Assembly (NCBI RefSeq): GCF_023023025.1
Contig: NZ_CP095481.1
Span: 6,957,001 to 7,021,000, forward strand
Reading direction: 5' to 3'
Source of the DNA: Amycolatopsis sp. WQ 127309
GTDB lineage: Bacteria > Actinomycetota > Actinomycetes > Mycobacteriales > Pseudonocardiaceae
Length of the DNA stretch: 64,000 nucleotides
A program made the translations under genes and the position numbers. The notes beneath the pieces were generated by a model that was not told the DNA's origin, ran no database searches, and saw nothing but the letters and a program-made list of their open reading frames with translations. Numbering within the stretch: position 1 is the first letter of the stretch; every line of letters starts with the position of its first letter. Positions 8,399 through 31,456 of this stretch are shown here, piece by piece.

Positions 8399-8414
8399 GG
8401 GCACTCCTCCAGGG

Positions 8415-8448: not shown

Positions 8449-8480
8449 CATAGTTCCGTTCGTCGAGTACGCTGCGCCTC

Positions 8481-8960: not shown

Positions 8961-8963
8961 CTG

Positions 8964-8982
8964 CGGCCCGGCGCTTGGGCCG
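8964..8982. terminator. Possible weak bidirectional terminator
   Basis: CGGCCC (8964-8969) pairs with GGGCCG (8977-8982) around a 7-base loop, between the convergent marR and luciferase-like genes. There is no U-tract, and the stem is only 6 bp. Confidence 0.35.
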
Positions 8983-9006
8983 AACACCGAACAGCATGCG
9001 GGTGCG

Positions 9007-10700: not shown

Positions 10701-10702
10701 GA

Positions 10703-11089: not shown

Positions 11090-12104
11090 CGGCGGCCACC
11101 GTCCCGCGCCGGACCTGGGGCAGCACTTCGGCGGCGATCAGCTCCGTGGCGCCTTGCACGGTGGCATAAGGGATCCCGCCGATGTCGACCGACAGCAGGT
11201 GCAGGTCGTGGCCCCACAGCTGCCGCAGCCGGCCCAGCTTGTCGACGACCTCGGCCGGGCTGCCGCAGAGCGCGGGGCCGGTGGGGCCGATGTGGCCGTC
11301 GAAGTCCAGGGGCCCGTCCTTGCGGGCGCTGAGGTAGCTCTCGATGTACGTCGACCACAACGCCCGCGCCTCCTGGGACGTCTTGGCCACGAACGCGTGG
11401 CTCGCCGCGCCCAGCCGGCCTGGCTCGCCGCCCCGGCGCTCGCGCCACTGGTCGCGGTAGGCGTCGAAGAACGGCACGAACGCGGCCGGCTCCCGGGCCG
11501 TGGTGCCGAACACCATGGGCAGGCCGTGGCCGACGGCCAGCGCGATCGAGTCGGGGTTGGTGCCGCCGCTGATCCACAGCGGCGGCCGGGGCTGCGCGAG
11601 CCGGGGCTGCACCAGGACGTCGTCCAGCGGCGGCCGGAACTCGCCCCGCCAGGTGACCCGCTCCTCGGTCCACAACCGTTGCAGCAGTTCGAGGTTCTCC
11701 CGCTTGCGGGCGCCCTTGGTCGCCGGGGCCTGGTCGAACACCGCGTACGGTTCGGGGAAGAACGAGCCGCCGACGATCATCTCCAGGCGGCCGTCGGACA
11801 GCAGGTCGACCACCGCGTAGTCCTCGGCGACGAGGACCGGGTCGCGGTTGGCCACCAGCGTCGTGCCCGTCGCCAGGCGGATCGTCGAGGTGTTCTCCGC
11901 GATCGCGGCCAGCACGACCGCGGGCGACGGGATCACGTCCCGGTCCCGGAAGTGGTGCTCACCCACGGTGTACCAGGCGTACCCGAGGTCCTCGGCCTCC
12001 TTGGCCGCGCGGACCACGTCCCGGAGCCGCTGGCGCTGGCTGAGGGTGGTGCCGGTGCGGACGTCGGGCAGCAGGCTGCCGAACGTGATCAGCCCTAGGT
12101 CCAT
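11079..12104 (-). CDS. Luciferase-like (LLM) flavin-dependent monooxygenase
   Basis: A 341-residue bacterial-luciferase-fold protein beginning MDLGLITFGSLLPD, with GYAWYTVGEHHFRDRDVIPSP (EHH motif near the active site) and IRLATGTTLVANRDPVLVAE. PPLWISGGTNPDS and the phosphate-binding loop region near the C-terminus agree with FMN-dependent members (alkanal/sulfonate type). It overlaps the ABC ATPase gene by 10 bases and the PPOX gene by 11, so its expression is tied to the importer. Together with the rhodanese this suggests cleavage of a C-S bond or oxidation of a sulfur-containing ligand. That is not proven by the sequence. Confidence 0.85.
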   Translation of the reverse strand: MDLGLITFGSLLPDVRTGTTLSQRQRLRDVVRAAKEAEDLGYAWYTVGEHHFRDRDVIPSPAVVLAAIAENTSTIRLATGTTLVANRDPVLVAEDYAVVDLLSDGRLEMIVGGSFFPEPYAVFDQAPATKGARKRENLELLQRLWTEERVTWRGEFRPPLDDVLVQPRLAQPRPPLWISGGTNPDSIALAVGHGLPMVFGTTAREPAAFVPFFDAYRDQWRERRGGEPGRLGAASHAFVAKTSQEARALWSTYIESYLSARKDGPLDFDGHIGPTGPALCGSPAEVVDKLGRLRQLWGHDLHLLSVDIGGIPYATVQGATELIAAEVLPQVRRGTVAAGAR

Positions 12105-13672
12105 GATGCTTCTTCCTCCGTGATGCCGGGAACGGCGTCGAGCAGGCTCTGGGTGTACGGGTGCCGGGCCGCGGTGAAGACGTCTTCGGTGGCGCCGGTC
12201 TCCACGATCCGGCCGTGCCGCATGACCGCGATCCGGTCGCAGACCTGCCGGACCACCGCCAGGTCGTGCGAGATGAACAGGTAGGACAGGCCCCGGTCCC
12301 GCTGCAGCGTGACGAGCAGGTCGAGGATCTGCGCCTGGACGGTGACGTCGAGGGCGGAAACCGGCTCGTCGCAGACGACCAGCTCCGGGTTCAGCGACAA
12401 CGCGCGGGCGATGGCGACCCGCTGCCGCTGGCCGCCGGACAGTTCGGCGGCCTTGCGCGCCGCGGTCGCCGCCGGCAGCGCCACGCTGTCCAGGAGCTCG
12501 GTGACACCCGGGCCGTCGGTGATGCCGAAGTTGCGCAGCGGCTCGGTCAGCAGGTCCCGCACGGTGAACCGGGGGTTCAAGGAGGCGTACGGGTTCTGGT
12601 AGATCAGCTGGATCCGGCGGTGCAGCTGCCGGAGCCGGCGCCGGTCCGCCGCGGTGACGTCGACGTCGTCCAGCCGCACGCGCCCGGCGGTCGGGCGTTC
12701 CAGCCCCACCACGAGCCGGGCCGTGGTGGTCTTGCCCGAGCCCGATTCGCCGACCAGACCGAGGCTCTGGCCCCGCCGGATTTCGAAGCTCACGTCGTCC
12801 ACGGCGGTGCGGTGCTGCTTGCGCAACCCGCTGCCGCGGACCGGGAACGTCTTGCTCAGCTCGCGAACCTCCAGCAGCACCTCCGATCGCTCGACGGCGC
12901 GCGCCCTCGGCCGGGCGGTGGCGGGGTTGTCGGAGAGCAGCCGTCGGGTGTACGGATCACCCGGCGCGTGCAGGACCTGCTCGGTCGGGCCGGCTTCGAC
13001 CACCTGCGCGTTCCGCATCACGACGATCCGCTGCGCTCGCTCGGCGGCCACCGCCAGGTCGTGCGTCACCAGCAGGATCGCGGTGCCGGTGGTTCTCGCC
13101 AGGTGCTCCAGGTGGTCGAGGATCTGGCGCTGCACCGTGACGTCCAGTGCCGACGTGGGCTCGTCGGCGACGAGCAGCCGCGGCCGGGCGGCCGTCGCCA
13201 TCGCGATCAGCACCCGTTGCCGCATCCCGCCGGACAGTTCGTGCGGGTACTGCCGGGCGCGGACCGCCGGTTCGGGCAGCCCGGCCTCGGCCAGCAGCTC
13301 CGTCACCCGCGGGCCGCCCGGCAGCCCGTGCACCTTCAGCACCTCGGCGACCTGGCGGCCGACCGGCTGCGTCGGATCCAGCGCGACGCCGGGGTCCTGC
13401 GGCACCAGGCCGACGCGGCGGCCGCGGACCGACCGCCACGCCTTCGCCGACAGCCCGACGAGCTCTTCGCCGTCGAGCCGGATGCTGCCGCCCAGCACCT
13501 TTCCCGTGCCGGGCAGCAGGCCGATGATGGCGTGCGCCAAGGTGCTCTTGCCCGAACCGGACTCGCCGACCACCGCGGTGATCCGGCCGGGTTCCAGGTC
13601 CAGGCTGACGCCGTCGACCGCGACGTGGTCCCGGTAGGCGACCCGGAGGCCGTCGATGCTCAGCAGCGTCAT
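12095..13672 (-). CDS. ABC transporter double ATPase (Dpp/Opp-type, fused)
   Basis: A 525-residue fusion of two oligopeptide-type ATPase domains (DppD- and DppF-like). Domain 1 has Walker A VGESGSGKSTL, signature LSGGMRQRV and Walker B LLVADEPTSALDVT. Domain 2 has Walker A VGESGSGKTTT, signature LSGGQRQRV and Walker B LVVCDEPVSALDVT. Each D-loop is followed by its H-loop (LLVTHDLAV, LFISHDLAV). The fused form powers import through the two permeases just upstream. The ATG overlaps the permease stop (ATGA). Dpp-family cargoes include peptides, nickel and glutathione-like molecules, so cargo must be read from context. Confidence 0.92.
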   Translation of the reverse strand: MTLLSIDGLRVAYRDHVAVDGVSLDLEPGRITAVVGESGSGKSTLAHAIIGLLPGTGKVLGGSIRLDGEELVGLSAKAWRSVRGRRVGLVPQDPGVALDPTQPVGRQVAEVLKVHGLPGGPRVTELLAEAGLPEPAVRARQYPHELSGGMRQRVLIAMATAARPRLLVADEPTSALDVTVQRQILDHLEHLARTTGTAILLVTHDLAVAAERAQRIVVMRNAQVVEAGPTEQVLHAPGDPYTRRLLSDNPATARPRARAVERSEVLLEVRELSKTFPVRGSGLRKQHRTAVDDVSFEIRRGQSLGLVGESGSGKTTTARLVVGLERPTAGRVRLDDVDVTAADRRRLRQLHRRIQLIYQNPYASLNPRFTVRDLLTEPLRNFGITDGPGVTELLDSVALPAATAARKAAELSGGQRQRVAIARALSLNPELVVCDEPVSALDVTVQAQILDLLVTLQRDRGLSYLFISHDLAVVRQVCDRIAVMRHGRIVETGATEDVFTAARHPYTQSLLDAVPGITEEEASWT

Positions 13673-17955: not shown

Positions 17956-18450
17956 TCAGCTGGTGATCGTGAGCGGGTTGCTCGGAAAACGGCTGTCGAG
18001 GAGCGTCTGCAGCAGGTCCGGTAGCTCGGCAGGCAGGAGTTTGTCCTGGCATTCCGACAGCGCGACGGCCGACCACCAGCGGCGCTCGATGTGGCCGGCG
18101 CGTTCGTTGGCGGTGTGCCGGAGGGCGACCTGCGGCGCGGTCCGGTCGGTGCGGGCGAGGTAGACGTGGTCGAGGCGGTGGTGCTCGCGGCCGCGGTAGG
18201 TGAAGCGGCTTTCGCGGGTCCAGAGCTTGCGGCCGACCTCGTCCAGGACGAGGCCGGTCTCCTCGGCGATTTCGCGGCGGGCGGTGGCCTCGAGCTTCTC
18301 GCCGGGGTCTTGGCCGCCGCCGGGGAGTTCCCACCAGTGGTGGCCTGGGTCGTCGGGTCGCGGGCGTGGATGAGCAGGACCTCGTCGTCGGGGTTGAGGA
18401 GCAGGACGCGGGCGCCGACCCGCAGGGCCGGGGTCGCTGGTGACGGTCAT
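17956..18450 (-). CDS. Nudix hydrolase with a double (compensating) frameshift near the N-terminus
   Basis: The open frame gives 164 residues. The Nudix box GGQDPGEKLEATARREIAEE then TGL (GX5EX7REUXEEXGU) is intact, as is the C-terminal half. Residues about 8-31 in the open frame are an Arg/Pro-rich run unlike any Nudix protein. Reading the next frame over exactly that stretch gives ALRVGARVLLLNPDDEVLLI, the expected first strands. One extra base near 18428-18430 and one missing base near 18355-18357 (plus-strand G/C runs) restore a normal protein. So either the read has two indels or the allele is a doubly shifted, probably impaired gene. The normal enzyme would hydrolyse a nucleoside diphosphate derivative. 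Confidence 0.8.
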   Translation of the reverse strand: MTVTSDPGPAGRRPRPAPQPRRRGPAHPRPRPDDPGHHWWELPGGGQDPGEKLEATARREIAEETGLVLDEVGRKLWTRESRFTYRGREHHRLDHVYLARTDRTAPQVALRHTANERAGHIERRWWSAVALSECQDKLLPAELPDLLQTLLDSRFPSNPLTITS

Positions 18451-18723: not shown

Positions 18724-19284
18724 TTATCGATCGCGCCAAGCGAGCGGGGACAGGCTGACGGCTGCCTCGGCGACGCGCCTGGCGGTCTCGGTCGTGAGGC
18801 CTTTCTGCGCGGAGTCGATCCACCCGGCGACGCGGCGGACTCCGATGTCCTGGTACTCGATGGCCTGCAGCAGCATCTCGAGCTTGTCAGCGTCCTTGGC
18901 GCATCGCGCCTCCGGCGTCTGCCGAGACTCAAATTCGTCGACCGCCGCGCGGACGAGGTCTCGGGAGGTGTCCGGGAGGGCGGCGGTCTGGTCGGCGGTG
19001 ATGTCGCGTGGCTCGGGTTTGCTCATGTACTTGGTCGCGGTGTGCGGGATGTCCCCGGTGCGGGTTTCCTGGGTGTCGTGCCAGAGCGCCAGGAACGCGG
19101 CGCGTTCGGGGTTGGCGCCTTCCTCAGCGGCGAGCAGTGCCGCGATCTGGGCGGTTCGAAGGCTGTGTTCGGCGACCGATTCGGGGTCGCGGACGCCGGC
19201 GTGCCACCACCCGGTACGGCGGATGCGCTTGAGCAAGCCGAGTTCGTAGCCGAACGCGGCGAGGGCGGCGGGCTCGTCTGGCAT
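18724..19284 (-). CDS. HD-domain phosphohydrolase (YfbR-like 5'-deoxynucleotidase)
   Basis: A 186-residue HD-superfamily protein. Metal ligands are visible as AEHSLRTAQIAALL (His), LWHDTQETRTGDIPH (His-Asp) and KDADKLEMLLQAIEY (distal Asp). This H..HD..D set, together with the small size, matches the YfbR/HDDC2 class, which dephosphorylates deoxynucleoside monophosphates. GGGAG lies 9 bases before the ATG; an upstream in-frame start is less likely. It follows the XRE gene by 13 bases on the same strand, so the regulator and nucleotidase form one unit. It faces the divergent glycosylase-fold/radical SAM/kinase genes, all of which could act on nucleotides. Confidence 0.85.
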   Translation of the reverse strand: MPDEPAALAAFGYELGLLKRIRRTGWWHAGVRDPESVAEHSLRTAQIAALLAAEEGANPERAAFLALWHDTQETRTGDIPHTATKYMSKPEPRDITADQTAALPDTSRDLVRAAVDEFESRQTPEARCAKDADKLEMLLQAIEYQDIGVRRVAGWIDSAQKGLTTETARRVAEAAVSLSPLAWRDR

Positions 19285-19297
19285 GAAAGTGTTCTCC

Positions 19298-20410
19298 CTA
19301 GCGGTCGGCGAGACGAAGAGCGTAGTGAAGCCCTGCAACCTGATCGCGCCCAGCGCGGGTCAGCGCTTCTCCGGACGTCAGGATGTCCAATGCCTCGGCC
19401 AGGGCGCCGCGAGCAGCAGACTGCCCGGCCAGCAGGGCAGGGCGGCTGGCCACGAGCGTGTGCACGGTCTGCAGGTTCAGCGGTAAGTGCGGTGAGGTCG
19501 GAGCGAGCCGGTTCACCAGGTGTTCGAACAGTCGGACACCGGACCAGGCTTTCGTGTCGCCGTCAGCCATGAAGGCGTCGTCGGTCTGGTCGTCTCCGAG
19601 TTCGCCGATCCAGTGCGCCCAGTAGTTGAGGTTCGCCAGCTCGGCGCGGGAATCGGTGGTGCGCGCGACGAAGTCGTGCAGATGGGAGGGATCGCCGGCG
19701 GAGGCGAGCGCGACTGAGGCCGAGCGGGCTTCGAGCAGGCTGGTCACGTCGGCGACCGGGCGGCGCCCCGCGCTTTGCCATTCCTGGCGCAGCCAGGCGG
19801 TGACCTGGTCGCGGTGGTCGAAGCCGAGCAGGTAGACCGCTTGCCGACGCAGCAGAGCCTCTCCCTGGTGCACGCCGCGTTCGGCGACGGTCATCAGATG
19901 ATCGAAGAACCGGATTCGCGCCTCGGCGCCCAGCGTGGGACCGGGTGGGACGGGGCCGCGGCGAGGCACGTTCGAGGTGAACATCCCCAGCTCCGGCGGG
20001 AGATGTCCGGTGAAGGGCCAGGTGATCAGGTTGGTCAGCGTCTTGCGGTGCACGCTCGCGGCCAGCGGATGCAGGTCGGGGTCGACCCAGCCGCTGCTGG
20101 CGGTGATCCCGGTGGAGAGGACGAGGTCGGCCTCGAGTGCCGTACGCAGGTGCCGGCCGGTGGTGGCGGGCGCGCCGAGCCGGCGTACTCGGGCGCACAG
20201 GCGGACGAAATCGCCCGCGTTCATCGCGGCGAGCGGACGCCGGCCCGATTCCCAGCCTTGAATCGTGCTCACGTCCATCGCGAGGTGTTCGGCGAACCGC
20301 TCCTGTGTCAGCCCGGCTGTCTGGCGGGCGAGCTTGAGGACGTAGCCGGACACGACGCCGGTCGAGTGGGAACCCTGACTGCCGGTCAGTGTTGCCGATC
20401 CTCCGCCCAC
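19298..20410 (-). CDS. XRE-family helix-turn-helix regulator with large C-terminal domain
   Basis: About 370 residues. An N-terminal lambda-repressor-type helix-turn-helix reads LKLARQTAGLTQERFAEHLA then MDVSTIQGWESGRRPL. It is followed by some 290 residues of helical, TPR-like sequence that I do not recognise as a named domain. I chose the GTG at 20410 because GGGGAG precedes it by 5 bases; a start at 20539 would add a low-complexity leader. It is in one operon with the HD nucleotidase and divergent from the small Cys protein and glycosylase-fold genes, so it is the probable local regulator of this nucleotide-enzyme cassette. The ligand is unknown. Confidence 0.78.
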   Translation of the reverse strand: MGGGSATLTGSQGSHSTGVVSGYVLKLARQTAGLTQERFAEHLAMDVSTIQGWESGRRPLAAMNAGDFVRLCARVRRLGAPATTGRHLRTALEADLVLSTGITASSGWVDPDLHPLAASVHRKTLTNLITWPFTGHLPPELGMFTSNVPRRGPVPPGPTLGAEARIRFFDHLMTVAERGVHQGEALLRRQAVYLLGFDHRDQVTAWLRQEWQSAGRRPVADVTSLLEARSASVALASAGDPSHLHDFVARTTDSRAELANLNYWAHWIGELGDDQTDDAFMADGDTKAWSGVRLFEHLVNRLAPTSPHLPLNLQTVHTLVASRPALLAGQSAARGALAEALDILTSGEALTRAGRDQVAGLHYALRLADR

Positions 20411-20586
20411 GGACGCTCCCCGGTCTGGCCGAACCGATCGGACCACACCCGCACTCGTGGTCCGTTCTTCGTGCTCACTGCTGATCGTAGCGTTACAACC
20501 CGCAGTGACACAGAAGTCTCTGAGCAGGCTAAACGCCATGGCGGCGCCCTTGCGCGGCAGCTACGACGGGGGAGAGGTGACGTTCC

Positions 20587-20853
20587 GTGACTCCGTTGAT
20601 GTTCGTCCGGTTCCGTCGTGGCGTCGTGGGTGAGACGCGTCGGTCGGTGCACTTGGTGCCCGCCCCGGAGGACGGTCTCGCGACACAAGACATGGGCGAG
20701 CTGGTCGCCCTGTGCGGCCAGAAATTCCTGCCTAAACAGGCGGAGCTGCTACCGATGCCTGGGGGAGCACCGTGTCTGGAATGCACGATCAACTCACCGG
20801 GGCAGCGGCATGACGTCGGGCGTGCTCCCCGGCTTCGCGAGCTGATCACGTGA
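20587..20853 (+). CDS. Small conserved-type Cys protein (possible zinc-binding)
   Basis: 88 residues from a GTG with GGAGAGG upstream. The C-terminal half carries LVALCGQKF and, 17 residues later, CLEC. This C...CxxC spacing resembles small actinobacterial zinc-binding proteins that travel with XRE regulators, and the same LCG...CxxC layout occurs again at 24510-24776. It has no signal peptide. It lies between the divergent XRE gene and the glycosylase-fold gene and may be the first gene of the plus-strand cassette. Function is unknown. Confidence 0.6.
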   Translation: MTPLMFVRFRRGVVGETRRSVHLVPAPEDGLATQDMGELVALCGQKFLPKQAELLPMPGGAPCLECTINSPGQRHDVGRAPRLRELIT

Positions 20854-20925
20854 TCCGGGACGGTGGCGAAACCGGGCGGTCGCCGCCCCGCGAGAATGCC
20901 GGAACCAACGCGAGAAGGGCCGAAC

Positions 20926-21744
20926 GTGGCACACCCGACCATGATGCTCGACCACCCCGGATGGCTGCGCGACGACACCGGGCGAGCCCGGCGCGTCCTC
21001 CGCTCGGCCGGCGCGGTCTGGGCGGTGGTCTGCTCACCCGCACCCGAGCGCGGGCACCTGGTCGAGGTCGCACCGCTCGCCGGCGACACCGATGTCGCGC
21101 CGGTCGTGGACACGATCGATCCGCAGCTCCTGGTCGGCGATGCGGCGGTGTGCGATCCGCTGCGGGCTGTCGGCCCGGTCGCGCGGCTGCGGACCTGCGA
21201 CGTCTGGGAAGCGCTCGGCACCGCGGTGACCCGGCAGGTCATCAAAGCCGCGAACGCACGCGAGAACTACCGCCGGTTCTGCGAAACCCACGGCGAGCGC
21301 TACGACACCGCGGCCGGCCCGGCGTGGCTGTTCCCTACGCCCGAGACGGTTCTCGCCCTGTCGGATGACGAGTTCGCTGCGCTGCGCATGACCTTCTTCC
21401 GTGATGGCCTGCGCTCCGCGGCCGAGGCGAGCCTCAAAGCGGCCGACGACTGGGCCGGCATGACGGGCGAGCAGCTCGTCGCCGCGGTGCAGGGCGTGCG
21501 TCGCATCGGCCCGTGGACGGCCGGCGCCACGGTCGCCGACGTCACCAACGACTACAGCCTCTATCCGTTCGCCGACCTCGCGGTGCGCACCTGGGCGGGC
21601 AAGCTCGCCCCGTCGGTCGACTGGCCGAAACCCGAACCCGATTTCGGGTGGTTGTGGCAGGCGATGGCCGGCGCGCAGCTGTCCGAGTGGACGCTGCTCA
21701 CCCTCGCTTGGGGAGTTCGACATGCAACCGGAGTTGCGATCTGA
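20926..21744 (+). CDS. HhH-GPD DNA-glycosylase-fold protein
   Basis: A 272-residue protein whose C-terminal half is a helix-hairpin-helix/Gly-Pro-Asp domain. The hairpin is GVRRIGPWTAGATVAD (residues 190-205) and the following YPFADLAVRTW places an Asp (D217) where AlkA/OGG-type glycosylases have their catalytic Asp. No hairpin Lys is seen, so it would be monofunctional. The N-terminal half (residues 1-90) is not a domain I recognise. The GTG at 20926 has GAAGGG 7 bases upstream. It overlaps the radical SAM gene by 23 bases. It may be a base-excision enzyme, or a member of the glycosylase-fold pyrophosphorylases that modify thymine in phages. Confidence 0.78.
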   Translation: MAHPTMMLDHPGWLRDDTGRARRVLRSAGAVWAVVCSPAPERGHLVEVAPLAGDTDVAPVVDTIDPQLLVGDAAVCDPLRAVGPVARLRTCDVWEALGTAVTRQVIKAANARENYRRFCETHGERYDTAAGPAWLFPTPETVLALSDDEFAALRMTFFRDGLRSAAEASLKAADDWAGMTGEQLVAAVQGVRRIGPWTAGATVADVTNDYSLYPFADLAVRTWAGKLAPSVDWPKPEPDFGWLWQAMAGAQLSEWTLLTLAWGVRHATGVAI

Positions 21745-23188
21745 GCTGATCGCCGGTGCCGACCGGACACGCGACATCGACGCCCTGTTCGTCAACGCGC
21801 CGTTGCGCGACTACGACGAACGTCCGCGGGTGAACGACTTCACGCTGCCTGTGCTCGGCATGGCCTACATCGCCACCTACGCGGCCGCCGCTCAGGGCTT
21901 CAACGTCGGCGTCCTCGACGCCGAGGCGCACGGCCTCGGCGTCGAACGCACGGCCCGACTGGTCAACGCGGCCGCGCCGCGATGGGTCGGGTTCAACCTG
22001 CTGGCCCCGACCTACGAGATCACCGCACGGATCGCCGAGCGGCTCGACCGCGACATCATGCTCATGCTCGGCGGGCACCAGGCCAAAGCCATGCCGGCCG
22101 ACATCCTGTGCGACCGGCGGATGAGCCGATGCGAAGCCCTGGTGATCGGGGAGGGCGAGACGAGGGTCGCTGCCCTGCTCGACGATCACCGGCGGCGAAC
22201 CGAGCTGCCCGGGGTGATGTGGCTCGACCCGATCCTGCACACCCCGGTCACAGGTGGGATCGGCCTGAAGAACGGGCACCACCTCGCGCCGGACATCAAC
22301 GGGTTGCCGTTCGTCGATCGCCGCTACCTCGCGCAGGACCCGCGTCCTGACGCCAGCCGGATCGAGGCGAACATGGTCGGCGCCCGCGGCTGCCCCTACG
22401 ACTGCTCGTTCTGCGGCGCTGCGGTCTCGGCGAACCCGGACGTCACCATCCGGACCCGCGCACCGCACAACATCCTCGACGAGATGGACCAGCTCCGCGG
22501 CGTCGGCGTGAACGCCTTCCGGTTCGTCGACGACCTGTTCCTCGGCGTCCCACGCGTCATCAAGCAGATGATGACCGCGTTCACCGCGGACCACGTCGGC
22601 GATTGGGCGCGGTGGGACGCCACCGGCCGGATCAACGTCCTGTACCGCACGAGCGACGCCATGCTCGACACCCTCGCCGTGAACGGGCTACGCGAGGTCG
22701 CGCTCGGCGTCGAGTCCGGCAACGCGCGGATGCTCAAGCGGATCGACAAGCGCATCACCCCGGACATGGCGCGCACGGTGGTGCGGCGGCTCGTCGAGCG
22801 CGGCATCAACGTCAAGGGCTATTTCATCCTGGGGTTCCCGACCGAGACGTGCGCCGAGATCGACGACACCGTGCGGCTCGTTCACGACCTGTGGGACATC
22901 ACCGACAAGTATCCGGGCCGGTTCCGGGCCTCGGCGTTCGAGTACCGCCCGTATCCCGGTACGCCCGACTGGGCTGAGCTGATGAAGACCGGCCGGTACA
23001 CCGCCGGGCAACTCCTCAACTACACCGCCGTGGACCTCACCTCGGATGGTATCGACGAGTCGATGCGCGAACGCGACGAGTTCAACTTCTCGGTCAACAT
23101 CCAGTTGAGTGACGCGCCGATCGACTACGTGAGGCGCAACCTGGTCACAGTCTCGCGCACGCAGTTCGACCGGAAGGCGGCCGCGTGA
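21722..23188 (+). CDS. B12-binding-type radical SAM enzyme
   Basis: 488 residues. The N-terminal Rossmann-like domain (residues about 18-150, VNAPLRDYDERPRVND and LMLGGHQAKAMP) resembles the B12-binding domain of the BchE/MiaB-like superfamily, but without a DxHxxG motif. The radical SAM core follows, with the iron-sulfur motif GARGCPYDCSFCGAA (C224, C228, C231; CX3CX2C). GVESGNARMLKRIDKRITPD and VKGYFILGFPTETCAEID are typical later strands. It should cleave SAM reductively and perform a radical methylation, insertion or rearrangement. It overlaps the genes on both sides (23 and 4 bases), which argues that the three products act together. The substrate is unknown. Confidence 0.88.
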   Translation: MQPELRSELIAGADRTRDIDALFVNAPLRDYDERPRVNDFTLPVLGMAYIATYAAAAQGFNVGVLDAEAHGLGVERTARLVNAAAPRWVGFNLLAPTYEITARIAERLDRDIMLMLGGHQAKAMPADILCDRRMSRCEALVIGEGETRVAALLDDHRRRTELPGVMWLDPILHTPVTGGIGLKNGHHLAPDINGLPFVDRRYLAQDPRPDASRIEANMVGARGCPYDCSFCGAAVSANPDVTIRTRAPHNILDEMDQLRGVGVNAFRFVDDLFLGVPRVIKQMMTAFTADHVGDWARWDATGRINVLYRTSDAMLDTLAVNGLREVALGVESGNARMLKRIDKRITPDMARTVVRRLVERGINVKGYFILGFPTETCAEIDDTVRLVHDLWDITDKYPGRFRASAFEYRPYPGTPDWAELMKTGRYTAGQLLNYTAVDLTSDGIDESMRERDEFNFSVNIQLSDAPIDYVRRNLVTVSRTQFDRKAAA

Positions 23189-23820
23189 TCAACCGCGGAG
23201 TGTTCGTCACTCTCGACGGCCCGGCAGGCGTCGGCAAGACCACGACCACCCGGATCCTGCGCGAGTTCCTGGACCGGCGCGGATACCCGGTGCACGCGAC
23301 GACACAGCCGTCGCACGGCGTGCTCGGCGAGACCGCTCGGCACCGCACGGACACCTACCGCGGGTACACCCTCGCCTGCCTGGTCGCCGCCGACCGGTAC
23401 CACCACCTCGAGCGGGAAGTGCGCCCTCAGCTCGAGGCCGGGTTCATCGTCATCTGCGACCGGTACGTCGCCTCGTCCTACGTGCTGCAACGCATGGACG
23501 GCGTGCCGCTGGCCTTCGTCGACGCGATCAACTCGGCGGCCGACCGGCCGGACCTCGCGGTCATCTTGCAGGCGCCACCCGAGGTAACCTCGGCGCGGGT
23601 CGCCGCCCGCGGGGCGCACAACCGGTTCCACACCGGCGAGGGCAGCAGCCGCCGAGAAAGCGAACTGTACGAGGAGGCGGCGGAACAGCTCGCGCGTCGG
23701 GGGTATCCGGTGCTCACCGTTGACACGGCCGGGGCGTCGCCCGCGCAGGTCGCGACCTACCTCACGAACCGAATCGCCGAGCTGGTGGCGGATCCCGCCG
23801 GCGAAGTGGCCTCGGCGTAA
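23185..23820 (+). CDS. Thymidylate-kinase-like P-loop kinase
   Basis: 211 residues from a GTG in a GTGA overlap with the radical SAM stop. The P-loop is FVTLDGPAGVGKTTTTRIL, the family DR motif is ICDRYVASSYVLQRMDG, and LILQ-like strand four is present as LAVILQAPPEV. The lid region is RVAARGAHNRFHTGEGSSRR. This is the dTMP kinase (Tmk) fold. It is unlikely to be the housekeeping enzyme because of its position in a coupled accessory operon, so a role in phosphorylating a modified nucleotide is plausible. Confidence 0.85.
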   Translation: MINRGVFVTLDGPAGVGKTTTTRILREFLDRRGYPVHATTQPSHGVLGETARHRTDTYRGYTLACLVAADRYHHLEREVRPQLEAGFIVICDRYVASSYVLQRMDGVPLAFVDAINSAADRPDLAVILQAPPEVTSARVAARGAHNRFHTGEGSSRRESELYEEAAEQLARRGYPVLTVDTAGASPAQVATYLTNRIAELVADPAGEVASA

Positions 23821-23825
23821 CCTGC

Positions 23826-23859
23826 CCTGCGAACCTGCGGACGTCCGTGGGTTCGCAGG
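23826..23859. terminator. Perfect 10-bp hairpin between kinase and Nudix genes
   Basis: CCTGCGAACC (23826-23835) pairs perfectly with GGTTCGCAGG (23850-23859). The 14-base loop itself contains the palindrome GGACGTCC (23839-23846). It starts 5 bases after the kinase stop. Without a U-tract it could be an attenuating terminator, an RNA-processing stem or a regulator site. Confidence 0.55.
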
Positions 23860-23891
23860 ACCAGAACCGCCACCCGTGAGGACCTTGCCGG

Positions 23892-24353
23892 ATGCCCGAC
23901 GGCCAGCACACTGTCATCGATGTGCACGTTCTGCTCGTTCGTGGCGACGAGCTGCTGCTCACGCAGCGGCGCGGTACCTACGGCGGCGGAATGTGGCATC
24001 TGCCGTCAGGCAAGCTCGATGCCGGCGAGTCTCTGCCGGCGGGTGCGGCTCGGGAGGCCGCCGAAGAGATCGGTGTGCTGATCGATCCGGCCGACTTGCG
24101 GCACGTCCACACATTGCACGTCGCCGGATCCGGTCCGGTACCGCGGCTCGGTTTTTTCTTCGAGGCTCGTCGCTGGTCCGGCGAGCCTCGCAACTGCGAA
24201 CCCGACAAGTGCTCGGCCGTTGACTGGTTCCCGCTCGACAACCTGCCCGACGAGGTGATCTCGTACCCGCTTGCGGGGATCCAGGGGTACCTGGCAGGAC
24301 AGACCTTTGCGGTGCTCGGCTGGGTGGACGACCGCCGCGCCGCGATTGCCTGA
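23892..24353 (+). CDS. Nudix hydrolase (MutT-like)
   Basis: 153 residues. The complete Nudix box is GKLDAGESLPAGAAREAAEE then IGV. The N-terminal strands VIDVHVLLVRGDELLLTQRR and the sequence GGGMWHLPSG before the box are typical of nucleotide-triphosphate-cleaving MutT-like enzymes. It lies 71 bases after the kinase gene on the same strand, with a strong hairpin between. It could clear damaged or modified nucleotides formed by the cassette, or act independently. Confidence 0.87.
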   Translation: MPDGQHTVIDVHVLLVRGDELLLTQRRGTYGGGMWHLPSGKLDAGESLPAGAAREAAEEIGVLIDPADLRHVHTLHVAGSGPVPRLGFFFEARRWSGEPRNCEPDKCSAVDWFPLDNLPDEVISYPLAGIQGYLAGQTFAVLGWVDDRRAAIA

Positions 24354-24953: not shown

Positions 24954-25754
24954 TCATGGCGACCCGGCCAGTCCGTAGCCGACAGCGGCTTGTCGCAATG
25001 AATCGAAAGTCGACCAATACCGGTCGACTGTCTCTGGGGCAGACGAATAGACGGTCGTGTGGTGATGCCGCAAGATAACGGCGAAGATGTTTTCCGCCGT
25101 TTCGTGGATCACGAAAGGTTCGATCGTCCCCATGGGGCATGCTTCCTCTGGCACAACGCGAATATCGGCACGGTGAGCTTGGGTCGCGTCAATTATCCGA
25201 TCTGGCCGAGCTTCCGCGTTCTCCGACGGGACGATCTTCGATGCGACGGCTGCCTCGCCCAAGAGGACCGTGTGTCGGTGTCGGTGATCTCGGTCGATTC
25301 GACGGACTTGCCGCGCCAGGATCTCCTCGTCGATGACGTCAGGCCGATCGACGTGTGAGGCCAGAACTGCATGGGCATACTCGTAGGGCTGCAGCAAGTC
25401 CGGTACGACCCGCGGCGCCCACTCCAAGGTGCGCAGTGCGTGCCGTTCGTACGCCATCTGAAGGCTTGGCGTACCAGGCTCGTTGGCTTCCACATAGGTC
25501 CGGCATCCGGACTGTTCGTGAAGCCGCATAAGGAAGGTATAAGCACGTGGTGCTACGCGTAGGTATCCGAGGATCTGAGCAAGGGTGGCATCCTCGGGCC
25601 TGCGCTCCCCAGTTTCCCAGGCGGAAAGCAAGGCAGGCGAAAGTCCCAGCCTACGAGCCAGTTCGCGAAGGCTGATCCCTTGAGCTGTACGGATCTCCCG
25701 CACTTCTCGGCCGATCACGTGAAGAGCGGGTCGATGTGAAGGTCCGTTTGTCAT
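24954..25754 (-). CDS. XRE-family regulator, DUF5753 type
   Basis: 266 residues. The N-terminal helix-turn-helix is VREIRTAQGISLRELARRLG then LSPALLSAWETGERRP. A DUF5753-like ligand domain follows, with EWAPRVVPDLLQPYEYAHAV (the family's conserved entry region) and GTIEPFVIHETAENIFAV. Such regulators form pairs with small partner proteins in WhiJ-type loci of Streptomyces and control development or secondary metabolism. The DUF5753 region is somewhat divergent (it lacks the common GLLQT form). It follows the 109-residue gene by 33 bases. Confidence 0.83.
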   Translation of the reverse strand: MTNGPSHRPALHVIGREVREIRTAQGISLRELARRLGLSPALLSAWETGERRPEDATLAQILGYLRVAPRAYTFLMRLHEQSGCRTYVEANEPGTPSLQMAYERHALRTLEWAPRVVPDLLQPYEYAHAVLASHVDRPDVIDEEILARQVRRIDRDHRHRHTVLLGEAAVASKIVPSENAEARPDRIIDATQAHRADIRVVPEEACPMGTIEPFVIHETAENIFAVILRHHHTTVYSSAPETVDRYWSTFDSLRQAAVGYGLAGSP

Positions 25755-25787
25755 ACTGTGTGCCTGTCTGGGAGAAGGAAAGCGTCG

Positions 25788-26117
25788 TCACAATCCCGAA
25801 GCGGCATCCGAAACGGGGGACTGGAGAAGGCCGAGTAGCTCCTCGACCTTGTCGGCAGTCCAGCGTTGGTCAGCCCGGCTCGCCGTGCCGTCTTGAAGCC
25901 TGACCGCGAGCAGCCCGATCCACGTCTGCGTCGTCTGGATCGCCTCGACGAGCTGTGCCGTTGCCCAGGGCGTGGGTGCGTTCACTGAGACCGGCGGTCG
26001 AGCGGAGGTGGACATTCGGTGCAACCCGGCGAGCACGCGGCGGAGGAGGATGCACTCAGGGTCGTCTACGGTCCACGGGTCAACTTCGTCAAGCTGCGGG
26101 CTTTCGTTATGCAGCAA
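25788..26117 (-). CDS. Hypothetical protein upstream of the XRE gene
   Basis: 109 residues, starting MLHNESPQLDEVDPWTVDDP and ending with a predicted helix pair (TADKVEELLGLLQS). No known domain is recognised, and there are no membrane segments or cysteines. It is the promoter-proximal gene of the minus-strand unit (26117 to 24510), and its start is 294 bases from the divergent DUF5753 gene. An AGGAGGTG-type box precedes the ATG (revcomp of 26126-26133 region). It is probably co-expressed with the downstream regulator and could be its partner. Confidence 0.6.
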   Translation of the reverse strand: MLHNESPQLDEVDPWTVDDPECILLRRVLAGLHRMSTSARPPVSVNAPTPWATAQLVEAIQTTQTWIGLLAVRLQDGTASRADQRWTADKVEELLGLLQSPVSDAASGL

Positions 26118-26275
26118 GTTGAATCACCTCCTGACGAGAGATGGGATTAGCTCTACGCACGCTTCGGTGTGGCGGACTGCCAGCGGGGCGGCCGCAATTC
26201 AGATCCGGGAGATTCCGCAGCTCCGCTGTCGGCCTGCTGGTGGTAATCGTGACGTCGTCGCCTGTGGTTCAGTGA

Positions 26276-26369
26276 CGTGATCACGGTCGCGCAAATTTGC
26301 ACAGATGACAAGGGGTCTTGAATGTAAATTTGCACGATCACCTATGCGGGTTACCGTGCAAGTTCTCAC
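26276..26369. promoter_or_regulatory. Operator array between divergent XRE loci
   Basis: Three related 14-mers are evenly spaced: GCGCAAATTTGCAC (26289-26302), ATGTAAATTTGCAC (26322-26335) and GTGCAAGTTCTCAC (26356-26369). Their centres are 33 and 34 bases apart, about three helix turns. The first contains the perfect palindrome GCAAATTTGC. A further perfect palindrome, CGTGATCACG, lies at 26276-26285. The patch is much more AT-rich than its surroundings. It fits a cooperative operator for one or both flanking XRE regulators. Confidence 0.6.
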
Positions 26370-26410
26370 GACTGTCGTAGGCTCATTGAGACCGAGAAGA
26401 GGGAGTGCTC

Positions 26411-27274
26411 TTGTCCGACGAAGTGAAGCCGAAGCCATCGGGCGTCCGCATGCGCCGGATCGCGCGCACGATCCTGGCCTGGCGCAAGGAGAGTGGCCAG
26501 GATCAACAGGAGGTCGCGAACGCCGTCGGTTGGTCGAATGCGAAGCAGTCACGCATCGAAGGAGCCAAGTTGCCGGCCACTCCGGCCGACGTCATGACCC
26601 TTGCCCTCCACTTCGGCCGATCCGTGGAAGAGCGCGAAGCCTTGTTCCGGGATGCGCAGACGGTCGGCAGTGCACGCTGGCTGGAGCAGGTCTCAGACGA
26701 CGCCTTCGCCGCCGACGTTCGCGAGTATGTGGCGCTCGAAGCCGAGGCTGCGGAAGTGCGGATCTTCAAGGTCGACGTGATGCCTGGTCTGTTTCAGACC
26801 GCGGACTACGCCCGGGCCATCGAAGAGCTGATCGCGAAGACCGACAACGGGCGGAGTGAAGACCGCGTTCGCGCGCGCATCCAGCGCCAAGGTCGGGTGC
26901 AGGACGGGACGACGCTCCGCGTTCGATGCGTGCTGACCGAGGCCGTGTTGAGGATCGAGGTGGGTGGCCGTGCGACTTGGCTGGGCCAGCTCCGGCGGAT
27001 CGCCGAGCTCATGGACCTACCCAACGTCGACATCCGCGTCATCAAGAGTACGAGCGGTGCGTATCGCGCGATGGGCTACCCGTTTAGCATCCTGGGCTTT
27101 GCCGCGAACGAGCCAGACATCGGCTACGTCGAGCTGCTCGGGACGGGCATATATCTTGAGCAGGAGGCTGAGATCGAGCCGTACGCCGATGCCTTCGACG
27201 AACTGTGGGAGACGGCGGAGGGTTCGGACGAATCCCGTGATCTGCTGTCCGAGATCATCGGGGCGGCCGAATGA
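26411..27274 (+). CDS. XRE-family regulator, DUF5753 type
   Basis: 287 residues. The helix-turn-helix is RRIARTILAWRKESGQDQQE then VANAVGWSNAKQSRIEGAK. The DUF5753 domain follows, with the hallmark VDVMPGLFQTADYARAI, VRCVLTEAVLRIEVGG and DLPNVDIRVIKSTSGAY. I prefer the TTG at 26411, since GGGAG lies 5 bases before it; the in-frame GTG at 26405 overlaps that box. It precedes a DUF397 gene by 21 bases, the classic regulator/partner pair of WhiJ-type loci. It likely binds the operator array just upstream. Confidence 0.87.
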   Translation: MSDEVKPKPSGVRMRRIARTILAWRKESGQDQQEVANAVGWSNAKQSRIEGAKLPATPADVMTLALHFGRSVEEREALFRDAQTVGSARWLEQVSDDAFAADVREYVALEAEAAEVRIFKVDVMPGLFQTADYARAIEELIAKTDNGRSEDRVRARIQRQGRVQDGTTLRVRCVLTEAVLRIEVGGRATWLGQLRRIAELMDLPNVDIRVIKSTSGAYRAMGYPFSILGFAANEPDIGYVELLGTGIYLEQEAEIEPYADAFDELWETAEGSDESRDLLSEIIGAAE

Positions 27275-27295
27275 TCAACGGACTGGAGATCGAAG

Positions 27296-27487
27296 GTGGA
27301 CGTGGCGCAACTGCCGGAGTCGGCGTGGCGGAAGAGCAGCCATAGCGGCGAGGGCGGCAACGAGTGTGTGGAGGTGGCGTCCCTTGACGCTGTGGTTGCC
27401 GTCCGCGACTCGAAGGACCCGCGCGGCGGGTTCCTGGTCCTGCCGAAGGCAGGCTGGGCGGCGTTTCTCGACTCAGCGGTGAAGTAG
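27296..27487 (+). CDS. DUF397 protein
   Basis: 63 residues from a GTG with GGAG 7 bases upstream. The DUF397 signature is complete: WRKSSHSGEGGNECVEVA, then VAVRDSKDPRGG and a terminal W.AF (GWAAFLDSAV). DUF397 proteins are encoded next to XRE/DUF5753 regulators in Streptomyces and relatives. There they modulate the regulator, and some pairs behave like toxin-antitoxin partners. Confidence 0.9.
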   Translation: MDVAQLPESAWRKSSHSGEGGNECVEVASLDAVVAVRDSKDPRGGFLVLPKAGWAAFLDSAVK

Positions 27488-27843
27488 TCGACGGGGAGGC
27501 AGGCCCCGAGATGGCGGGCTTCGTCCGCGATCTGACGCGTCGCGCTGACGATCTCGCAGGTCGCGAACGGCCCGGGTTCTCGGCGTCAGCGTTGTCAACG
27601 GTGGGCTGCGACGAGTCGAGTAGCTCCAGGCTCAGAGGTCGTCGGCCAGTCTCCTTCGGTTCTGGCTGATCGGCTCCCGGCAGGTTCAAGGCCGCTGACT
27701 TTGGTCTGGCCCGATAGCGCAGCCGACGGTGACCGAGATGGCAAAGGCGAGCCTCGAGCCTCGCTAGGCGAGTCGGTCGAACGCGTGTTCTAAGTTTGGT
27801 AGGTTCGCATCGCTGAGGTCGGACGCTCAACCAGGAGGTTCTC
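27488..27843. other. Intergenic stretch without a supported gene
   Basis: 356 bases between the DUF397 stop and the next small gene. Frames on both strands are shadows without good starts. I see no strong hairpin. The promoter of the 61-residue gene should lie at its right end. Confidence 0.4.
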
Positions 27844-28029
27844 GTGGCATGGTTGCTGAAGGAGCGAGCATCTGGTCGCGAGTGGCGAGTCGGTGACAGC
27901 GACCTTGCGTGGGACGCCGGAGGGTACGACTCGGCGCGTTTCGAACTTCACTTCCTCGACCAGGAGGTCATCGGCACCCCGGACGGCGTACCGGGCCGCC
28001 GAGACGCCGTGGCGGCCGCGCACGGCTGA
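27844..28029 (+). CDS. Small hypothetical protein
   Basis: 61 residues from a GTG with an excellent AGGAGG box 5 bases upstream, which is the main support. The sequence starts MAWLLKERASGREWRVGDSD, is acidic in the middle (FELHFLDQEVIGTPDG) and has no membrane segment, cysteine or known motif. It stands alone between the DUF397 pair and the convergent NERD gene, and may be a further accessory of the regulatory locus. Confidence 0.6.
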   Translation: MAWLLKERASGREWRVGDSDLAWDAGGYDSARFELHFLDQEVIGTPDGVPGRRDAVAAAHG

Positions 28030-28125
28030 AACCAGCGGACCACAAGCGCGATTCCTGCGGTCCAGGGACAGCGGAGGTGAATGCCGCTCGTTTTGCTCAG
28101 CTGAGCACGCCCCGCTGTAATGACC

Positions 28126-29214
28126 TCAGCTTCCGTGGAAGACTTGACCGACGATGATCGCGGCGGTGATACCGATCGCGCTAATCAGAGCGAGCACTAC
28201 GATCAATCCCCACGGAACCCGGCGCTGCAGCCGTCGCGTGGCTACCTGAGGCTCGGGCACCGACAGCGGCCGCGTTTCCGGACGCGCCGGAGGGGGCGGT
28301 GGTGGGGTCTTCGACGGCGGCAGGCTGTGACTGGCAGGCACCTGCCGGGCTCGCCGCGGGGGAGCCTGTGCCGGCAGTGCGGGCGCGCTTGCCCGGGTGG
28401 TCGTGGTGGCGGACACGGACTGCAGCGGCGGTGGTGTCACGCGCCGGTACGGGGATCCTGTGCCTCGCACGGGCGACTCCAGCTCCGGGTCGCCGAGTGC
28501 AGGACTGAACGGCGGTGAGATCGGTGGCTTGATCGGCGGTTCGGGCCGGGAGGGCGGGGCCGGGAGGTGTTCGCTGAATCCTTCAGCGAGCAGCTCGGCG
28601 CGGCTGGGTGCCAGTTCGACCAGGGCGAGCGCTGCGCAGGCGGCCACGACGCCGTCGGCGGTCCAGACCGGGGCCTGGGCGCGGTAGCGGTGGAGAACCT
28701 TGCGCAGGCTGGTGGGCTGGGCCAGGGCGACGTCGATGCCGTAACCCGCCAGGTCCTTGCCCGGTGGCAGTTCGATCGCGCCGGTGGCGGCGAGCACGAC
28801 CAGACCCCGGATGAAGCTGTCACCGTCGCCGGGGATGTCGGCGAAGACGCGCTTGGCCGCGTAGACGCCGGCTTTGACTTGTTCGCCGGGGTTTGGCAGC
28901 CCGGCCAGTGTGTGGATCGCTGCCGGCTCGCCTTCGACCAGCCACGGCCCGTTCGGCGGGATCGTCAGCATCCCGGCCTGCGGAGTGGTGAAGCCTTTGA
29001 CCTCGAGCACGGCCAGGCCGGTGGGCAGGAACAGCAGCCCGTCGATCTGCCGGGTCGTGCTCTTGTCGGGGATGTTGACGTTCAGCAGCGCCAGGCCGTC
29101 GATCGCGTGCGGGGTGCCGTGGGCCCAGCCGGCCAGCATGTCGTGCACTTTCGCCTCGGCGCCGGAGAGACCGTGCGCAGCTGATCCGGTGCCCGGCTGT
29201 ACCCGCACCAGCAT
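28126..29214 (-). CDS. NERD-domain protein with Pro-rich linker and C-terminal membrane anchor
   Basis: 362 residues. The N-terminal 1-200 carry a NERD (nuclease-related, PD-(D/E)XK-like) core: TTRQIDGLLFLPTGLAVLEV then KG, giving D58, E71 and K73 as the putative catalytic set. A linker very rich in Pro (about residues 215-330) follows, and then a single C-terminal membrane helix (VPWGLIVVLALISAIGITAA). It would be a tail-anchored protein with the nuclease-like domain in the cytoplasm. NERD proteins are linked to DNA processing and, in some neighbourhoods, defence, but this one's role is not known. It is monocistronic. Confidence 0.75.
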   Translation of the reverse strand: MLVRVQPGTGSAAHGLSGAEAKVHDMLAGWAHGTPHAIDGLALLNVNIPDKSTTRQIDGLLFLPTGLAVLEVKGFTTPQAGMLTIPPNGPWLVEGEPAAIHTLAGLPNPGEQVKAGVYAAKRVFADIPGDGDSFIRGLVVLAATGAIELPPGKDLAGYGIDVALAQPTSLRKVLHRYRAQAPVWTADGVVAACAALALVELAPSRAELLAEGFSEHLPAPPSRPEPPIKPPISPPFSPALGDPELESPVRGTGSPYRRVTPPPLQSVSATTTTRASAPALPAQAPPRRARQVPASHSLPPSKTPPPPPPARPETRPLSVPEPQVATRRLQRRVPWGLIVVLALISAIGITAAIIVGQVFHGS

Positions 29215-30052: not shown

Positions 30053-31456
30053 TCACTGTTTGGGTGCGGCCGGGCCGTTGAGCCGGCCCGGCGTGCGCTC
30101 ACCACCGGCTTTCGTGGGATGACCAAAGCGGCGTGGAAACAAACCCAGCGGATCAAACCGAGCTTTGGCCTCGGCGAGCGTCGCCCGCGTCGAGCCGAGA
30201 TGGCGCGTCCAGTCGGCGCTGGTGAAGGGAATGGCCCCGGTGGGATAGCTGGTGCCGCCCAGGCTGACAGCAACGTCGTACCAGCGCCGGTTACTGGAGA
30301 CCATCTTGTCGGCCTGCACCCGGTCCGTCGCGAAGCGAAGCCCAGCGACCAGGTAGAGGGTGCTCCCCTCCGGTTTGCGGAAAAGGGGAGTGGTGAGAGC
30401 CGCCGTGGATACCGGGTAGATGAGGATCAAACCGGATGCGCCCATGTCGGCCTGCTCGAGGCCGCTCATGACTTCGCTGGTGAAAGCGTCGATCTCCGCG
30501 TCGGGCACCAGTAAGTTGGGCCACGGGTGTGGCGCCTGCCATTCGCCGGTGCCTTCGAGGTACGTCACGGTCTCATCCAGCCGCGTGGCGAACTCCCAGT
30601 AGCCCAGGTCCTCGACCTTGTCGCGAGAGGTGGCAAAACCAAGCCCGGCAAGGAGTGAGTCTTGATCGGGCTCGTCTGGTCGCGTGTAGTACGAGGCGGC
30701 ATCGAGCATGTAGACCCAGCCGTCGGCGGTCGGCAGGACCTCTCCTTGCAGGAAGTCGAATCGCCCCTCGGCAAGCAAGGCGCGCTGACTGGTGATCAGT
30801 TCTTCGACGGTGGGGTAGAAGATCTTGATCCGCCGCACACTCGCGGGTGCTGGTATCAGCGGCAGCGTGGCTCGCACGATGATGCCGCACTGGCCGAACC
30901 CGCCGAGCGTGGCGTGGAACAGGTCGGGCAGCTCTGTGGGTGAGCAGTGGCGGACCGTGCCGTCGGCGGTGACGACATCCAGGGAAAGAACGTTGTCTGT
31001 TTGAACTCCGTAGCGATGGCTGGTACCTCCGATCCCGCCGGCTGACAGTGTTCCCCCGACGGACGTTCCCAAGTAGTCGGTGAGGACACGCGGAGTCAGG
31101 CCCTCCTGGAGTGTTCGTGCGAGCAGTGAGTTCCAGGTCGCGCCGGCTTCGACGGTCACCGATTCATCGGTGACGTTGCGGATCTCGTTCAGGTCTGTCA
31201 GATCGATGACCAGACCGTCAAGCACCTGGGCCTGCCCCAGGCTGCTGTGTCCGCGTCCCCGGGGCACGACGGGGATGGCGTTGGCCGCGGCGACCGGCAA
31301 GATGGCCGCGATATCGGAGATGGATCCGGCACGGAGAACCGCCAGCGGCGGGTTGCTGACGATGCCGCCGAAGTCTGCTGCGGCGTACGCCGTCGCGGTG
31401 CGGTCGGTGTCGACCGTGCCGTCCAGCGCCAGGCCTGAGAAAATGTCTGAAGTCAA
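30053..31456 (-). CDS. FAD-linked oxidoreductase, cytokinin-dehydrogenase-like
   Basis: 467 residues of the PCMH/FAD_binding_4 type. PRGRGHSSLGQAQ contains H70 at the place where cytokinin dehydrogenases bind FAD covalently. GTSVGGTLSAGGIGGTSHRY then GVQTDNVLSLDVVTADG is the family's FAD-cradle signature. WPNLLVPDAEIDAF corresponds to the HPWLNL.VP motif of the cytokinin-binding domain. It may oxidise a cytokinin-like N6-side chain or a secondary metabolite. The TTG start overlaps the stop of the upstream NB-ARC regulator by 4 bases, so the two are translationally coupled. No signal peptide is seen. Confidence 0.82.
   Translation of the reverse strand: MTSDIFSGLALDGTVDTDRTATAYAAADFGGIVSNPPLAVLRAGSISDIAAILPVAAANAIPVVPRGRGHSSLGQAQVLDGLVIDLTDLNEIRNVTDESVTVEAGATWNSLLARTLQEGLTPRVLTDYLGTSVGGTLSAGGIGGTSHRYGVQTDNVLSLDVVTADGTVRHCSPTELPDLFHATLGGFGQCGIIVRATLPLIPAPASVRRIKIFYPTVEELITSQRALLAEGRFDFLQGEVLPTADGWVYMLDAASYYTRPDEPDQDSLLAGLGFATSRDKVEDLGYWEFATRLDETVTYLEGTGEWQAPHPWPNLLVPDAEIDAFTSEVMSGLEQADMGASGLILIYPVSTAALTTPLFRKPEGSTLYLVAGLRFATDRVQADKMVSSNRRWYDVAVSLGGTSYPTGAIPFTSADWTRHLGSTRATLAEAKARFDPLGLFPRRFGHPTKAGGERTPGRLNGPAAPKQ

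Follow-up and report, generated by a model that had tools for sequence, protein, structure and literature searches.

The stretch of DNA analysed here (the window) comprises 64,000 nucleotides of Amycolatopsis sp. WQ 127309 (contig NZ_CP095481.1, positions 6,957,001 to 7,021,000), whose genome is 11.1 Mb long and forms one contig. At window positions 20926-24353 it carries the four-gene core of a cassette, encoding a DNA-glycosylase-fold protein of the HhH-GPD type (HhH), a radical SAM enzyme with a B12-binding domain (rSAM), a nucleoside monophosphate (NMP) kinase of the thymidylate kinase family (TMK) and a nucleotide hydrolase. The HhH and rSAM genes overlap by 23 nt and the rSAM and TMK genes by 4 nt (Table 1). 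A preliminary description of this DNA had placed the open reading frames (ORFs) and both overlaps correctly, and its family labels HD, XRE, B12-type radical SAM, thymidylate kinase and Nudix were borne out by profile searches. For the HhH-GPD label, the window protein itself gave a weak match (E 0.04, under the Pfam cut-off), and its family gave sounder evidence, with 24 of 50 members matching PF00730 at E <= 0.1 and a clear modelled fold. The genes and the conserved cassette were real, and only the boundaries had to be redrawn, with the XRE and HD genes and a small Cys ORF left outside.

We scanned named genomes with an HhH alignment and found 98 relatives, the best 80 of which were kept and, together with two viral contigs, gave 82 loci. 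All 80 named-genome loci were actinobacterial by name except one from a metagenome-assembled genome labelled Candidatus Melainabacteria (L009), in which HhH was 55% identical and the cassette contig is probably a misbinned actinobacterial one. The genome sets overlap, as L010 and L011 apparently equal L134 and L135, and L008 fits G225. The results showed that the HhH-rSAM-TMK trio was near full length in 59 of the 80 loci, in this order in 54 and in the order TMK-HhH-rSAM in 5, of which four are from Nocardia and one is from Frankia. The other 21 were incomplete, with no near-full copy of rSAM in 8, of TMK in 6, of both in 6 and of all three in 1; some of these loci were visibly decayed and some were cut by contig ends. 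Co-occurrence elsewhere was a point on which the preliminary description had staked its proposal, and the trio does keep company and order in other genomes, far beyond what chance would give. These loci were found with HhH as bait, and rSAM without HhH was therefore sought separately with rSAM as bait.

Relatives of the window's HD and XRE genes lay near the cassette in one of the 82 loci (L019), and relatives of the small Cys ORF, which a codon-usage gene finder did not call, in none. The XRE and HD genes are therefore local neighbours, and the conserved core consists of the four genes, which are co-conserved. On the same counts we rejected both the XRE/HD pair and the small Cys protein, which the preliminary description had counted in, as parts of the system. 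XRE regulators of two other families were found near the cassette, each in 28 of 87 loci. A regular-expression search for CxxC ORFs upstream of HhH gave hits in 26 of the 82 loci, by reading mostly chance frames, and a promoter and terminator scan gave nothing above shuffled sequence. A second Nudix hydrolase is encoded on the minus strand at 17956-18450, beyond the HD gene.

Table 1. Genes of the cassette core and adjoining features, in window positions
Feature	Position	Strand	Basis or remark
HhH-GPD DNA-glycosylase-fold protein, core gene 1	20926..21744	+	start GTG 20926 or ATG 20941 (by reading)
B12-binding-domain radical SAM enzyme (rSAM), core gene 2	21722..23188	+	Pfam profiles
Thymidylate-kinase-family (TMK) NMP kinase, altered substrate pocket, core gene 3	23185..23820	+	TIGR00041, pocket substitutions
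Nudix hydrolase, core slot 4 (CYTH or MazG instead in some relatives)	23892..24353	+	PF00293 E 9e-20, slot analysis
XRE-type regulator, divergent, local neighbour	19298..20353	-	PF13560 E 2e-7; relative in 1/82 loci
HD_3/YfbR-like 5'-nucleotidase-type protein, local neighbour	18724..19284	-	PF13023 E 2e-29, YfbR-like 7e-14; HDDC2 and YfbR matches; relative in 1/82 loci
Small Cys ORF, doubtful gene	20587..20853	+	relatives in 0/82 loci; not called by codon-usage gene finder

Exchange of the hydrolase in the fourth slot

We compared the fourth slot in 67 loci with near-full HhH and rSAM, a set that includes the viral contigs L003 and L004, the latter apparently the same locus as L006. Cassette-type Nudix (>150 bits), CYTH and MazG genes were counted if they lay between about -1.5 and +4.8 kb relative to HhH, a range that leaves a CYTH gene of L024 outside. 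The first count gave Nudix in 43 slots, CYTH in 12, MazG in 6 and none in 6, and never two of these types in one slot. Of the six initially empty slots, three were found to hold CYTH (L049, L050, L060) and one a MazG-like gene (L016, by reading), so that 65 of the 67 slots contain Nudix, CYTH or MazG. The remaining two belong to a decayed locus that has no kinase (L012) and to one whose contig ends inside the kinase (L051). When one member of each family was tested, CYTH was supported at E 1.2e-14, and MazG at E 0.004, below the Pfam cut-off. Nudix boxes were concentrated in the slot, with 47 in 156 kb versus 8 in 1333 kb elsewhere in the 80 loci. Mapping the hydrolase type onto the best rSAM tree (63 loci, without L003, L004, L012 and L051) required 10 changes, the minimum possible being 2, and well-supported branches force at least 5. 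These results show that the hydrolase of the fourth slot is exchangeable.

MazG and Nudix proteins are typical enzymes for converting nucleoside triphosphates (NTPs) to NMPs. The occupation of one place by three unrelated folds of related chemistry is the best indication that the pathway handles nucleoside polyphosphates. The earlier suggestion of a nucleotide or base modification cassette stands in this respect, as nucleotide-level chemistry.

The glycosylase, radical SAM enzyme and kinase

The rSAM protein matched Radical_SAM (E 2e-17) and the B12-binding profile PF02310 (E 3e-13), and the cysteines of its CxxxCxxC motif (Cys 224, 228 and 231) were invariant in 49 of 49 family members. It combines the motif and the B12-binding domain of a cobalamin radical SAM enzyme, and has the B12-dependent radical SAM fold seen in OxsB. 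OxsB was not returned when the PDB was searched by sequence with rSAM at E <= 0.01 and 0.001.

The window TMK matched Thymidylate_kin (E 1.5e-27) and scored 98.9 bits with TIGR00041, above the curated cut-off of 83.25. The preliminary description had drawn a parallel with the 5-hydroxymethyluracil kinase of phages; the Pfam matches at E <= 1 included no hydroxymethyl-dU (deoxyuridine) kinase family, of which Pfam has one, and point instead to an NMP kinase of the TMK family. We compared 70 cassette kinases with 24 dTMP-kinase-family proteins of the order (the 23 best-scoring loci and L122; the lower-scoring L123-L128 were unused). At the P-loop position, 23 of the 24 controls have Glu, whereas the cassette kinases have Gly (34), Ser (23) or Ala (13) and the acid in none of the 70. 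Position 67 is aromatic in 24/24 controls and Val in 68/70 cassette kinases (aromatic in 1/70), and position 101 is Tyr in 23/24 controls and Leu or Val in 68/70 cassette kinases (again aromatic in 1/70). The likeness to dTMP kinases is kept in the family score, the P-loop, the DRY motif and Arg71, Asp92 and Arg93. In M. tuberculosis TMK, Asp9 contacts a sugar hydroxyl, thymine is stacked against Phe70, and the base is bound by Arg74 and Asn100 (PMC3619541). The cassette pocket has lost residues that hold thymine and the 3'-OH, with the 3'-OH-binding acid, the thymine-stacking aromatic and Tyr101 all replaced, and the kinase therefore probably takes a substrate other than dTMP. The genome of the window also has a separate M. 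tuberculosis-type TMK (L093; E 8.5e-62 to the solved M. tuberculosis TMK) with Asp and Tyr at the P-loop and 101 positions.

The sole P-loop exception among the controls was a second cassette-like kinase in the same genome (50% identity). In a second island of this genome (L131; G000 C1:3978000-3996000, at 8281-12485), near a tmRNA (transfer-messenger RNA) gene and, by reading, smpB, a kinase of this cassette-like type (50% identity) follows an aldo/keto reductase in a fusion protein. The island also encodes a DEDDh exonuclease, a further radical SAM protein and an XRE regulator, and looks like a different radical SAM and TMK module at an ssrA site.

Modelling gives the HhH protein the complete two-domain fold of an AlkA/OGG1 glycosylase, and the catalytic Asp is invariant in 50 of 50 family members. 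Unlike the solved glycosylases, to which it is about 15% identical, it forms a subfamily of its own and carries Trp at the place of the catalytic Lys of OGG1. By fold, it is an AlkA/OGG1-like glycosylase predicted to excise a base. No pyrophosphorylase family was found in Pfam for the 50 members, and the viral structure matches included none by name (of the four at E <= 0.001, one is unnamed). The comparison with the pyrophosphorylases of phage thymine hypermodification, made in the preliminary description, gains no support from the fold, the Asp and these searches, though an absence of matches is no disproof.

Carriage by phages and plasmids, and patterns of loss

The cassette is carried by phages and plasmids. 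In Streptomyces phage SF3 the four genes occupy 25382-28755, with endolysin and holin genes ahead of them and the integrase behind. Including SF3 (L142), rSAM was found on nine viral contigs, about eight of them distinct since L144 and L145 have the same gene list; eight of the nine carry all four genes, and the ninth is cut at rSAM. In L144 and L146 the cassette is likewise flanked, by reading, by lysis-type genes on one side and an integrase-like gene on the other. In the Amycolatopsis loci L003-L006 the cassette is followed by genes of phage head and endolysin type. Among plasmids, 14 records contained HhH and 13 contained rSAM. All 12 records with at least 80% coverage of rSAM were among the HhH records, and one record outside them had an rSAM fragment (29%). 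Three inspected plasmid records (L087, L088, L090) carry all four genes; in L089, HhH is retained, but rSAM is reduced to a short ORF and the cassette kinase is missing.

Of 297 family genomes, 26 had HhH at E <= 1e-60 (one a fragment), 24 had rSAM and 21 had both (in G002 as fragments only). Near-full rSAM (at least 400 of 490 positions) was always accompanied by HhH (19/19), a pairing that further sets HhH apart from the solved glycosylases; the rSAM of G214 and that of G249 have one internal stop each. HhH stood without intact rSAM in 5 of the 297 genomes, in four of them free of internal stops and in two with a short rSAM remnant, and rSAM pieces stood without HhH in 3, all of them truncated. 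The dN/dS (nonsynonymous to synonymous rate) ratio was 0.185 for an orphan HhH pair and 0.17 for a pair of cassette copies (one pair each). In a phylum sample of 396 genomes, HhH at E <= 1e-30 was found in one, the window's own genome. In these small numbers, the asymmetry between loss of rSAM and loss of the glycosylase is what an immunity gene would show.

Several other genes in the neighbourhood were recorded. The window contains conjugation and secretion genes at 38495-60920, including a T2SSE ATPase (38495-39853), a replication-relaxation protein (55339-56427), a coupling-type ATPase of type IV secretion systems (56483-58993) and a TraG-type ATPase (59034-60920); this region is perhaps an integrative conjugative element adjoining the cassette. 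A protein with a NERD (nuclease-related) domain is encoded downstream of the cassette (28126-29214). An FAD (flavin adenine dinucleotide)-binding protein (30053-31456) has a match to the cytokinin dehydrogenase domain (E 3e-28), apparently an uncommon feature in bacteria. Six Micromonosporaceae loci (L041, L045, L048, L055, L057, L058) encode, near the cassette, a large restriction-type enzyme of the type IV methyl-directed kind, and that of L045, the only one of the six scanned, matched PADLOC mREase_IV at E 4e-271. The Amycolatopsis-like, cassette-bearing viral contig L003 encodes at 1-1878 a 625-aa protein that matches a PADLOC PN-superfamily effector (E 1e-13).

A mobile cassette that may make and police an altered nucleotide

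The reading that we put forward, tentatively and as just short of an even prospect, is that this mobile cassette makes and polices an altered nucleotide by a logic like that of viperin/CMPK2 and OxsB, with a protective glycosylase. The B12 radical SAM enzyme would alter a nucleotide or deoxynucleotide, and the TMK-like kinase would phosphorylate the altered NMP towards the triphosphate. Nudix, CYTH or MazG would cleave polyphosphates, either supplying the NMP substrate or removing excess product. The AlkA/OGG1-like glycosylase would remove the altered base from the host's own DNA and so serve as the immunity gene; alternatively, the altered base that it excises may be one in phage DNA, much as Brig1, a phage-defence glycosylase, reportedly acts on a modified base. 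The likeliest use would be phage defence, or competition, in lysogens and plasmid carriers. A more specific form of this proposal is possible but rather doubtful, namely a mobile antiviral or antimetabolite system in which the product is possibly a 3'-altered nucleotide, a re-tooled TMK activates it, the exchangeable hydrolase sets the dose, a dedicated glycosylase confers immunity, and temperate actinophages carry the whole as cargo against other phages.

Such a logic has a known precedent, by analogy, in viperin with its neighbouring NMP kinase of the TMK family. Prokaryotic viperins have associated kinases, and the cassette TMK weakly matched PADLOC VakA (E 3e-4), a viperin-associated kinase. 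The likeness lies in a radical SAM enzyme standing beside a TMK-family kinase. We rejected membership of the viperin family itself, as the only PADLOC match of rSAM at E <= 1 was PDC-M51A (E 2.7e-4), although PADLOC includes viperin models, and viperin aligned only over the rSAM core. CMPK2 has a TMK domain, adjoins viperin (RSAD2) and supplies its substrate (PMC9132166). PADLOC candidate PDC-M51 resembles the cassette in its radical SAM and TMK-like proteins (the latter at E 8e-11). We rejected it as the same system, as a search of the genome of the window for PDC-M51A gave no match at E <= 1e-30. Of three PDC-M51 loci, the two inspected (14 kb each) lack the cassette kinase, glycosylase and hydrolase. 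The name PDC-M51 was not found in the literature searched, which was covered in part; PDC-M51 is at most a distant analogue. In the same partly covered literature we found no published description of the four-gene set, in agreement with the preliminary description, which knew of no named system.

Several observations weigh against the altered-nucleotide proposal. HhH and rSAM distances agreed better with each other (Spearman 0.77) than TMK distances did with either (0.46 with HhH, 0.52 with rSAM). Slot 4 is a place more than part of an operon, since CYTH genes, and in Nocardia the Nudix genes, are encoded on the opposite strand; in L078, MazG is accompanied by a Nudix from a different subfamily (73 bits). 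The rSAM protein is related to OxsB and AprD4 at the level of fold, with 15-21% identity. Its tree follows host families (8 changes, minimum 6, in 62 rows without L003, L004, L009, L036 and L047), and movement is therefore mainly within families. The orphan HhH genes are few, and some of the asymmetry would be expected from one-sided deletions. The best defence-library matches, PDC-M51B to TMK (E 8e-11) and PDC-S07 to Nudix (E 2e-8), are themselves unproven candidates. The hints also conflict: the kinase pocket points to a change in the sugar (3' position), a base-excision glycosylase to a change in the base.

A modified-DNA pathway is the first alternative, and we consider it unlikely. T4- and SPO1-type phages replace a DNA base, and here the hydrolase would convert a dNTP to the dNMP, rSAM would modify the latter and the kinase would restore the triphosphate, which would be built into phage or host DNA for protection. 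An NTP hydrolase of the Nudix or MazG kind, an NMP-modifying enzyme and an NMP kinase are the enzyme set that this requires, and the cassette does occur on SF3 and other viral contigs. Yet the SF3 cassette lies between the lysis genes and the integrase, outside the replication module, plasmids and chromosomes carry it as well, a base-excising glycosylase would attack the modified DNA, and loss of the kinase's 3'-OH contact is odd for a substrate that needs extension.

A nucleoside-antibiotic pathway, in which a B12 radical SAM enzyme makes a secreted nucleoside, as for oxetanocin A and albucidin, and the glycosylase gives self-resistance, is quite unlikely. It gains from the OxsB-like fold of rSAM, the actinomycete hosts, and the HD protein and biosynthetic-type genes (1-17 kb, by reading) near the cassette in the window. 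OxsB is a B12 radical SAM enzyme acting on deoxyadenosine phosphates, and the oxetanocin genes are few and plasmid-borne, an HD phosphohydrolase gene being one of them (PMC13331322, PMC7074753). The cassette shares with OxsB/OxsA and with AlsB/AlbB of albucidin a radical SAM enzyme of like fold, the small number of genes and the plasmid carriage. It differs in having no conserved HD partner for the OxsA role, the HD relative being confined, besides the window, to one of the 82 loci, and in its additional kinase and glycosylase. The conserved core includes no transporter, and phage carriage and a phosphate-adding kinase fit an intracellular nucleotide better.

It is very unlikely that the cassette is a damage-sanitising set, in which the glycosylase removes damaged bases, Nudix, MazG or CYTH clear damaged NTPs and the kinase and rSAM recycle or repair them: the AlkA/OGG1 fold and MutT/MazG-type partners belong to classic repair and house-cleaning families and the orphan glycosylase pair is under purifying selection, but HhH is rare, patchy and mobile, and near-full rSAM came with it in all 19 of 19 cases.

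The altered-nucleotide proposal retains from the preliminary description the order-conserved nucleotide cassette and drops the comparison with thymine hypermodification and the membership of the HD gene. The nucleotide-depletion defence offered there as a second option survives in part, since a nucleotide-based defence fits better than thymine modification, with production of an altered nucleotide in place of depletion. Even without a role in defence, a four-gene set in which the hydrolase can be exchanged offers a clear example of pathway convergence that can be put to the test. If the proposal is true, the cassette would provide new enzymes for nucleotide-analogue chemistry, with a dTMP-kinase scaffold already evolved towards another substrate. 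It would also represent a second, B12-dependent bacterial route to antiviral nucleotides, with a built-in DNA glycosylase immunity gene and carried by temperate phages.

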